Below are positions 21-3,472 of a DNA stretch of 20,380 bases, in pieces. The DNA comes from a virus. The stretch covers positions 1 to 20,380 of the IMG/VR virus record IMGVR_UViG_3300044624_000837, one strand, 5' to 3'. The notes beneath the pieces are model-generated. The model saw nothing but the letters and a program-made list of their open reading frames with translations, was not told where the DNA came from and did not search any database. A program made the position numbers and the translations under genes. Position 1 is the stretch's first letter; each line of letters begins with the position of its first letter.

Positions 21-212
21 ATGTTTCAAATTAAAGTGACCGAAACCAACGGTAAGCAGTGGAACTTTGACCAAGTAGACGCCGACACTGTAGAAGTTTG
101 GACAAGTGTGACGGGCAATGATGGCGATTGGTTCCAATGGGGAACGATTCCATTCCACGAGGCAATCGTTCAGGTATCGGTATTGGCAGGAAACGCAAAG
201 CGCAATTACTAA
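21..212 (+). CDS. Small hypothetical phage protein, 63 aa
   Basis: This is an unrecognised 63-residue protein that begins with ATG after the purine-rich stretch AGGGATA. It is rich in Trp, Val and acidic residues and looks like a small beta-rich soluble protein, with no signal peptide, membrane segment or Cys pair. It is the first complete gene of the plus-strand small-gene arm. Its TAA stop lies inside the outer strand of the hammerhead ribozyme that follows, so its transcript should acquire a ribozyme-cut 3' end about 21 nt past the stop. Its promoter lies outside the window. Function unknown. Confidence 0.7.
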   Translation: MFQIKVTETNGKQWNFDQVDADTVEVWTSVTGNDGDWFQWGTIPFHEAIVQVSVLAGNAKRNY

Positions 213-267
213 GCCGAAAACCCGTGAGGGTTCTACGGGGAATAGTCTCCCCGTACTGATGAGGCAG
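209..267 (+). ncRNA. Type II hammerhead self-cleaving ribozyme
   Basis: Every conserved part of a hammerhead is present and in register. The core C3-A9 is CTGATGA at 256-262. G12-A15.1 is GAAA at 216-219. U16.1 is T232, which pairs with A219, and H17 is C233. Stem III is 220-223 with 228-231 (ACCC/GGGT), capped by the GNRA tetraloop GTGA. Stem I is a perfect 8-bp helix, 234-241 with 248-255, with loop 242-247. Stem II is 263-265 (GGC) with 213-215 (GCC), possibly extended by 266-267 with 209-210 across an AA bulge. The open ends are in stem II, which makes this the type II permutation known from bacteria and phages. Predicted cleavage is between 233 and 234. That would split the mRNA between the first two genes and leave a 2',3'-cyclic phosphate upstream and a 5'-OH downstream. 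Confidence 0.9.
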
Positions 268-295
268 ACACTTCACACCATGAAAGGGTGACACA

Positions 296-995: not shown

Positions 996-1184
996 ATGAA
1001 AGCACCACGACAGGGTATCCACTACCTATGCCACCTAACGGGAAACGGTACGAAATGCTACGAATGGATAAGTAAAGAAACGGGGACAACTAAACAATGG
1101 AATGGGAGCCTATGGGAATGGCGCATACTGTGGGCAGATGATGTCACGGTACTGCCAGCAGATTACGCAAACACTACAGCGTGA
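996..1184 (+). CDS. Small hypothetical protein, 62 aa
   Basis: This is an unrecognised protein starting MKAPRQGIHYLCHL and rich in Trp and Thr. I chose ATG 996 because it sits behind GAAAGGTTAGGA, a good ribosome-binding stretch; an in-frame GTG at 975 overlapping the previous gene is the alternative. The predicted fold is beta-rich, from sequence pattern only. Its TGA stop is embedded in the GTGACGAATGTCAC inverted repeat that opens the first promoter block. Function unknown. Confidence 0.65.
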   Translation: MKAPRQGIHYLCHLTGNGTKCYEWISKETGTTKQWNGSLWEWRILWADDVTVLPADYANTTA

Positions 1185-1211
1185 CGAATGTCACAGAAGA
1201 AATACTTGACA
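1181..1211 (+). repeat. 31-bp direct repeat, copy 1 (promoter block)
   Basis: This 31-base block is identical to 2094-2124. It begins with the inverted repeat GTGAC-gaat-GTCAC, contains the stop codon of the preceding gene, and ends exactly at a consensus TTGACA -35 box. The identity stops at the -35 box while the following spacer differs, so the block behaves as a portable upstream promoter half. Confidence 0.9.
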
Positions 1212-1238
1212 ACTAAGAACTAACACGATATCGTGTTA
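1206..1238 (+). promoter_or_regulatory. Sigma70-type promoter P1 with overlapping 18-bp operator
   Basis: A consensus -35 TTGACA (1206-1211) is followed after 17 bp by TATCGT (1229-1234), a fair -10 box. A perfect 18-bp palindrome, TAACACGATATCGTGTTA (1221-1238), covers the -10, so a dimeric repressor could block RNA polymerase here. The motif TTACACATA follows directly at 1236-1244. It is shared with promoter P2 and with the region upstream of the minus-strand exonuclease gene. It would drive the genes from 1266 onward. Confidence 0.75.
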
Positions 1239-1265: not shown

Positions 1266-1469
1266 ATGACAATAATCGCAAGAATCAGAACAGAATCGGA
1301 CATTGACAGTGGACTATTCGTTAGAACATTTGACACAATGAAAGAGGCTGAGACATTTAGCGACAATGCGTTAGGTAAATGGACAGAATCGGGACAAGTA
1401 AAACTCATATCATTATTTGACAGTGAAAGTGGCAACAGTTCAGAATGGGAACTAGAGAAAGGAAACTAG
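1266..1469 (+). CDS. Small hypothetical protein, 67 aa
   Basis: This is an unrecognised acidic 67-residue protein (MTIIARIRTESDIDSG at the start), with an alpha/beta pattern suggested by alternating hydrophobics followed by an Ala/Glu-rich helix. ATG 1266 lies behind AGAAAGGG at good spacing. The ORF stays open upstream, but those bases are the promoter, so the long form is unlikely. It is the first gene behind promoter P1. Function unknown. Confidence 0.7.
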   Translation: MTIIARIRTESDIDSGLFVRTFDTMKEAETFSDNALGKWTESGQVKLISLFDSESGNSSEWELEKGN

Positions 1470-1894: not shown

Positions 1895-2097
1895 CATATT
1901 ACCAAGCGAACACAGAATGTGAAGATATTATCTGTGATACGTGTGGGGAGACACGTTGGGAAACTCACCCCAAATATGGGTCTAACGTGGATAGTAGACT
2001 AGAAGAGGCAGAACGTACTGGCATACGTTGGTCTTGGGATGTTATCTACTCTTCTAACCCCGTCCCGTGTTCAATCTGTGGACATATGACTAAGTGA
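1891..2097 (+). CDS. Small zinc-ribbon-like hypothetical protein, 68 aa
   Basis: Two CxxC pairs, CDTCG near residue 15 and CSICGH near residue 60, flank a charged middle segment, as in rubredoxin-like zinc ribbons. Start ATG 1891 overlaps the previous stop (ATGA). Its TGA stop falls in the GTGAC-gaat-GTCAC inverted repeat of the second promoter block, exactly as for the gene ending at 1184, although the two proteins are unrelated. Function unknown. Confidence 0.75.
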   Translation: MTYYQANTECEDIICDTCGETRWETHPKYGSNVDSRLEEAERTGIRWSWDVIYSSNPVPCSICGHMTK

Positions 2098-2124
2098 CGA
2101 ATGTCACAGAAGAAATACTTGACA
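2094..2124 (+). repeat. 31-bp direct repeat, copy 2 (promoter block)
   Basis: This block is identical to 1181-1211 over all 31 bases, including the inverted repeat with embedded stop codon, the purine-rich AGAAGAAAT stretch and the terminal TTGACA. The neighbouring coding sequences do not match, so only the regulatory block is duplicated. Confidence 0.9.
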
Positions 2125-2155
2125 TTGGTACAGATACCCTGTATCGTGTTACACA
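2119..2155 (+). promoter_or_regulatory. Sigma70-type promoter P2
   Basis: TTGACA (2119-2124), 17 bp, then TATCGT (2142-2147) and TTACACATA (2149-2157) repeat the P1 arrangement at the same spacings. The right half of the P1 palindrome (ATCGTGTTA) is kept but the left half is not. Instead a shorter inverted repeat GATAC-cct-GTATC (2133-2145) overlaps the -10. P2 may therefore respond to a different repressor or bind the same one more weakly. It would drive the long run of small genes from 2179 to 5007. Confidence 0.75.
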
Positions 2156-3308: not shown

Positions 3309-3472
3309 TGGAAACGAAAGAAAGAATTATCTTGAACGAGTGCCACGTATGTGGTGAACCTCACACCCTGAACCGTATGGTTCACAAGTGGGATTACTCC
3401 TACTGCCTCACTTGTTGGCAGACAATAGACAAAATCGTTACGGACTTTAATAAAGAAATGGAAACAAAATGA
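3308..3472 (+). CDS. Small zinc-ribbon-like hypothetical protein, 54 aa
   Basis: The 54-residue product carries CHVCGEPH near residue 12 and CLTC near residue 33, the spacing of a compact zinc ribbon. Start ATG 3308 overlaps the previous TGA by one base and uses the recurrent ATGGAAAC context; an in-frame ATG at 3284 lies inside the preceding gene. It overlaps the next gene by four bases. Zinc binding is inferred. Function unknown. Confidence 0.7.
   Translation: METKERIILNECHVCGEPHTLNRMVHKWDYSYCLTCWQTIDKIVTDFNKEMETK

Follow-up and report, generated by a model that had tools for sequence, protein, structure and literature searches.

The viral DNA analysed here, a stretch of 20,380 nucleotides that we call the window, carries between the first two genes of a rightward small-gene operon an element whose identity as a type II hammerhead ribozyme is near certain. 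This assignment, made from sequence, rests on the Rfam score, the intact catalytic core and, in six distinct copies, compensatory changes that include the pseudoknot. We consider it probable that the ribozyme is functional and acts as a constitutive intercistronic cutter in the operon. The family and the operon-cutting idea are already known (PMC3088659), and the window ribozyme is an additional member in a known setting; the part of the result most worth following up is the anchoring of viral type II hammerheads to the stop codon of the preceding gene.

Results

Structure and boundaries of the ribozyme

An Rfam covariance search of the window, the check that the sequence-only reading had proposed, matched RF02276 (Hammerhead_II) at 212-273 (+), with 45 bits against a gathering cut-off of 37 and an E-value of 1.8e-6. 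The catalytic core is complete, with CUGANGA, GAAA, U16.1 (U232) and H17 (C233) at exactly the positions assigned in that reading (GAAA, T232, C233 and CTGATGA; Table 1), and its description of a GNRA-capped stem III, an 8-bp stem I with no mismatch and an open stem II (GGC/GCC) proved correct. Self-cleavage in the window is predicted 3' of H17, the cleavage position of the hammerhead family. The fold and the compensatory changes in stems I and III agree with the Hammerhead_II topology, in which these two stems are loop-closed and stem II is open. Additionally, the pseudoknot of this family is present as a short GUC/GAC pairing (3-4 bp), with U248-A266 as a possible extra pair. The element therefore reaches to about 269; the span of 209-267 given for it earlier was right in placement and too short at the 3' end, the pseudoknot having been overlooked.

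The hammerhead is both the minimum-energy and the centroid fold of 209-275 (-23.1 kcal/mol, z -2.3). Stem II is just 3 bp long and is lost by pseudoknot-free folding models once more flank is added; with at least 40 nt of gene 1 included, other stem II pairings are preferred. A second hammerhead was found neither in the window, even at a lax threshold, nor in a near-identical 36-kb contig.

Table 1. Features of the window, with positions counted from its first letter
Feature	Positions	Strand	Basis or remark
Gene 1 (63 aa), not assigned to a known family; opens the rightward operon	21..212	+	stop TAA 210-212 adjoins the ribozyme
Type II hammerhead ribozyme including pseudoknot tail	213..269	+	Rfam match 212-273, fold, covariation in relatives
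Stem II, 5' strand GCC (partner 263-265, open stem)	213..215	+	sequence, fold
Core GAAA (G12 A13 A14 A15.1)	216..219	+	sequence
Stem III hairpin, 5 bp (219-223/228-232), GUGA (GNRA) tetraloop 224-227	219..232	+	sequence, fold, covariation
Predicted cleavage site, C233 (H17) / U234	233..234	+	family knowledge and sequence
Stem I hairpin, 8 bp (234-241/248-255), no mismatch, loop 242-247	234..255	+	sequence, fold, covariation
Pseudoknot, loop I strand GUC (G245 U246 C247)	245..247	+	pairs with GAC 267-269; compensatory changes in six copies
Core CUGAUGA (C3-A9)	256..262	+	sequence
Stem II, 3' strand GGC	263..265	+	sequence, fold
Pseudoknot, tail strand GAC (G267 A268 C269)	267..269	+	sequence; copies in relatives
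Shine-Dalgarno-like AAAGGG of gene 2	283..288	+	sequence
Gene 2, 64 aa, small phage protein	296..490	+	homologues in L028, L029, L023, L063 and others
Candidate downstream promoter: palindrome GTGACGAATGTCAC, TTGACA-17-TATCGT	1181..1234 (repeat to 1275)	+	repeated unit
Second copy of this candidate promoter unit	2094..2147 (repeat to 2188)	+	repeated unit

Genomic setting

The window is a contig of an uncultured tailed phage and is covered at 99.96% by the 36-kb contig. A third contig (G003, also L013; 4900-8070) joins both ends of the latter through 3.2 kb, which indicates a circularly permuted genome of about 39.2 kb. WhiB-like, SSB, single-strand annealing, RecE-like and tail genes are among those present, and the occurrence of WhiB tentatively points to an actinobacterial host. 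A search with the terminase found no relative in genome contigs of 84,980 species, that is, no cultured or prophage relative there, and phage records gave only partial matches at about 25-33% identity.

To the left of gene 1 lies a 0.9-kb promoter region without clear rightward genes, followed by the leftward terminase gene. Gene 1 is thus the first gene of the rightward operon, also beyond the window edge in the 36-kb contig, as the phrase "first two phage genes" had implied, and the ribozyme falls at the junction of genes 1 and 2 in a small-gene run of about 5 kb. The earlier coordinates for this junction, from the stop codon of gene 1 to 28 bases ahead of gene 2, hold as well.

Taken as a class, promoter matches do not exceed chance, though the candidate unit at 1181 and 2094 is repeated. 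It comprises a palindrome GTGACnnnTGTCAC (CRP/GlxR-like TGTGA-N6-TCACA), then TTGACA-17-TATCGT, with a palindrome TAACACGATATCGTGTTA across the -10; the same unit is found in L010 (10832-10886), and a similar palindrome stands ahead of a promoter-like site preceding gene 1. The repetition suggests several co-regulated early promoters, and transcription from the two candidate promoters could let distal genes bypass the ribozyme.

Compensatory evolution in related phages

The terminase search for relatives yielded 80 loci, and a strict descriptor and a covariance model identified type II hammerheads in L026, L029/L030, L050, L073/L074 and L093. Relative to the terminase these are on the opposite strand, 1.5-2.6 kb away from the start of that gene, in the same place as in the window or nearby; that of L093 is located between later genes, not between genes 1 and 2. 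Across six distinct related copies, all on the same strand, sequence changes in stems I and III and in the pseudoknot leave the pairing intact. With the pseudoknot counted, 96.5% of pair cells are standard and ten pairs show changes on both sides; none of 500 shuffles was as good as the real alignment, and slid controls collapsed to near zero. When the three stems were analysed alone, stems I and III covary and stem II is invariant. The pseudoknots of the relatives read UAGCC/GGCUA, UAUC/GAUA, UGGCC/GGCCA and UUAUC/GAUAA. Because the covariance model was trained on these same six sequences, its scores on them are not independent evidence, in contrast to the descriptor and Rfam. Together, the paired changes in the six copies are strong sequence-level evidence for selection on what is probably an active fold.

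Several further elements were observed. The L093 hammerhead (3357-3410, -) has a U inserted between A9 and stem II (CUGAUGA-U-GGC), and an insertion of this kind recurs in a number of other type II copies. L006 (same as L012), a phage contig in which a gene 2 homologue (46%) also occurs, carries at 1357-1409 (+) a complete type III hammerhead with an extra A after CUGAUGA, which stays below threshold (24.1 bits against a cut-off of 48.5). In L048, L050, L085 and L087, the sequences GGACTTAAGTC / GGACTTAAGAC recur just ahead of the start codons of several unrelated small genes, upstream of the terminase and on the opposite strand.

Patchy presence and ribozyme-less junctions

On a terminase tree of the 37 rows with enough flank, ribozyme gains or losses number at least five, as forced by well-supported branches, with six as the best estimate. 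The close ribozyme-less relatives contain no hammerhead remnant detectable by descriptor, model or Rfam. Replacement by another known RNA was considered and rejected, as 11 ribozyme-less loci (126 kb) gave no Rfam match. The ribozyme is not essential, since close relatives do without it.

At the junctions that can be compared, the ribozyme-less relatives have stop and start codons fused. In L020 the gene 1 homologue runs into its neighbour through a fused stop-start TAATG; in L023 the gene 2 homologue starts inside the TAATG of the preceding gene; and L086, the ribozyme-less counterpart of L093, also has a TAATG junction. Gene 1 and the ribozyme are absent together from L048, whereas they are present as a block in L050. 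The window versus L020 or L023, L093 versus L086 and L050 versus L048 thus offer natural pairs with and without the ribozyme for comparison.

Stop-codon anchoring of viral type II hammerheads

Type II hammerheads are abundant in viral contigs, a sequence-pattern search finding them in at least 120 stretches. From the matches listed together with the terminase relatives we extracted 206 distinct and 142 non-redundant type II hammerheads, 139 of the latter having enough upstream sequence. Within this set, the stop codon of an upstream ORF of at least 40 codons ends between -1 and +5 nt of stem II in 103 of 139 copies (74%), as compared with 2.7% of random positions taken from those loci. Contact or overlap between stop codon and stem II is seen in 60 of the 139; specifically, stem II begins with the G of UAG in 33 copies, and the stop abuts stem II in 27. 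The quartiles of the distance are -1, 1 and 4 nt from stop codon to stem II, and 22, 26 and 32 nt to the following start codon.

The genes on either side are nearly all unrelated, with 121 clusters among 125 upstream genes and 120 among 129 downstream genes. A link to a particular gene family was therefore rejected, nearly every flanking gene forming its own cluster, and the steady stop distance beside unrelated genes indicates that conservation applies to the placement with respect to the stop codon and not to the gene. Compactness of phage genomes may account for part of the stop-codon anchoring. In 103 copies that have 8 nt or more to spare, a mean of 30% of that space lies upstream, which is a bias and not an absolute rule. 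The A preceding stem II might have been a mere trace of the stop codon; this was rejected, because A is also enriched where no stop abuts (47/79), and it is thus partly structural.

In some phage contigs (L136, L099, L111, L186, L188, L197, L204 and L209), type II hammerheads are crowded into a few kb, about six or more per contig and mostly one ribozyme behind each small gene.

Stop-codon anchoring is not described in the open-licence papers searched, an earlier mention elsewhere being possible; the words "stop codon" do not occur in the main text of PMC3088659.

Discussion

Proposed function

We propose that the nascent operon RNA would cut itself between C233 and U234. The 3' end of the gene 1 mRNA would lie 21 nt beyond the stop codon and carry the stem III hairpin and a 2',3'-cyclic phosphate, while the downstream mRNA would start 62 nt ahead of gene 2, its 5' end bearing the 8-bp stem I hairpin and a 5'-OH. 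The predicted folds of both cleavage products agree with such hairpin-ended halves, and the type II layout would be the one that gives both new ends a hairpin. Cutting would protect, or at least separate, the two messages, and translational coupling of genes 1 and 2 would be removed; since both halves keep whole reading frames and an end hairpin, the stability and dosage of gene 1 would be uncoupled from the downstream genes. The adjoining stop codon of the first gene and the compact spacing to the next ribosome-binding site lend support, and the putative mRNA-processing role put forward earlier, in which gene 1 is separated from the downstream transcript, is the one best supported by position and context. 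Constitutive cutting is the simplest reading. The tight stop-codon anchoring suggests that the chief role is to make the 3' end of the preceding gene's mRNA.

That the element resembles a hammerhead by chance, or is a dead one, is exceedingly improbable: it was rejected on the Rfam E-value of 1.8e-6, the covariation and the shuffled controls, in which the strict descriptor had no match (759 kb of shuffled sequence of relatives), and the matching position in relatives argues against it too. A selfish or hitchhiking element, spreading with accessory genes or through early-region recombination, would have its cutting tolerated rather than useful. Its patchy presence, with six changes on the terminase tree of which well-supported branches force at least five, would fit such an element, as would the unrelated flanking genes and the block-wise presence or absence of gene 1 and ribozyme in L050 and L048. 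However, compensatory change has kept the stems, core and pseudoknot, which argues that activity is under selection; moreover, the close relatives without a ribozyme retain no remnant, and the placement spares reading frames and ribosome-binding sites. We consider hitchhiking unlikely.

Regulation by a ligand, a protein or translation is rather unlikely as well. A terminating ribosome might cover the core, or the end of gene 1 might mask stem II, and cutting would then report gene 1 translation. Consistent with this, the stop codon meets stem II in the 60 of 139 copies described above, and the final 63 nt of gene 1 bias folding against stem II beyond codon-shuffled versions, only 5 of 200 of which are as strong. 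This masking is marked in the window alone, however: L026, L029, L050, L073 and L093 fall within their own shuffles, so that conserved masking by the gene 1 end was rejected, and an extra sensor domain is absent. Coupling to termination is nevertheless possible, since the core would be covered by a ribosome positioned on the stop codon, although the fold signal that favours it is limited to the window. Viroid and retrozyme hammerheads release units that are ligated into circles, and two ribozymes could likewise free a circular RNA here. Some viral contigs do carry up to eight type II hammerheads (among the matches listed and the terminase relatives), yet the window and the 36-kb contig have a single one, without the second that a retrozyme would have, which disfavours this reading; a search for circular or spliced products of tandem prophage hammerheads found none (PMC3088659). 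We regard it as very improbable.

The anchoring, together with TAATG in ribozyme-less relatives, turns a vague "mRNA processing" into a specific, testable idea, namely that the ribozyme generates the 3' end of the mRNA of the gene before it, perhaps in time with translation termination. Tentatively, and with more doubt than confidence, this may extend to phage type II hammerheads at large: they would be general, gene-independent formers of mRNA 3' ends, docked on the stop codon, in many cases with the G of UAG serving also as a base of stem II. Such a device would travel with a gene or be added behind it and would cut about 20 nt downstream, leaving hairpins on both ends and making separate messages out of coupled junctions; translation termination may time the cutting.

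Comparison with known systems

The window ribozyme shares with other RF02276 members (PMC3088659) the core, the open stem II, the loop I-tail pseudoknot and the phage setting between small genes. It differs in that its genome has a single copy where many others have several, in its pseudoknot of 3-4 bp, which is at the low end, and in the stop codon abutting stem II. The loop I-tail pseudoknot is typical of type II hammerheads and critical for speed (Perreault et al. 2011, PMC3088659), its shortening having cut rates about 20- to >100-fold in one construct (PMC3088659). The window ribozyme may, by analogy, cleave at a modest rate, because its pseudoknot is short.

Tandem hammerheads that flank genes such as ardA in prophages of Agrobacterium and others cleave in vitro, that of Agrobacterium also in E. 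coli, and an mRNA-processing or operon-cutting role has been proposed for them (PMC3088659). As would the window ribozyme, they are proposed to cut polycistronic phage RNA into operon- or gene-length mRNAs, and the identities of their genes are not constant; in contrast, the window has other genes, one cut only and a phage group without a cultured close relative. The hammerhead of haloviruses HF1/HF2 likewise belongs to an early transcript, in which it lies ahead of the early helicase gene and immediately before a start codon (PMC3088659), but these are archaeal viruses with a structural variant, whereas the window ribozyme is stop-anchored between genes 1 and 2. Finally, the crystal structure of a pseudoknot-containing hammerhead (PMC11300833) represents the same pseudoknot-stabilised class; in that designed construct the pseudoknot replaces helix II, while the window ribozyme keeps a 3-bp stem II.
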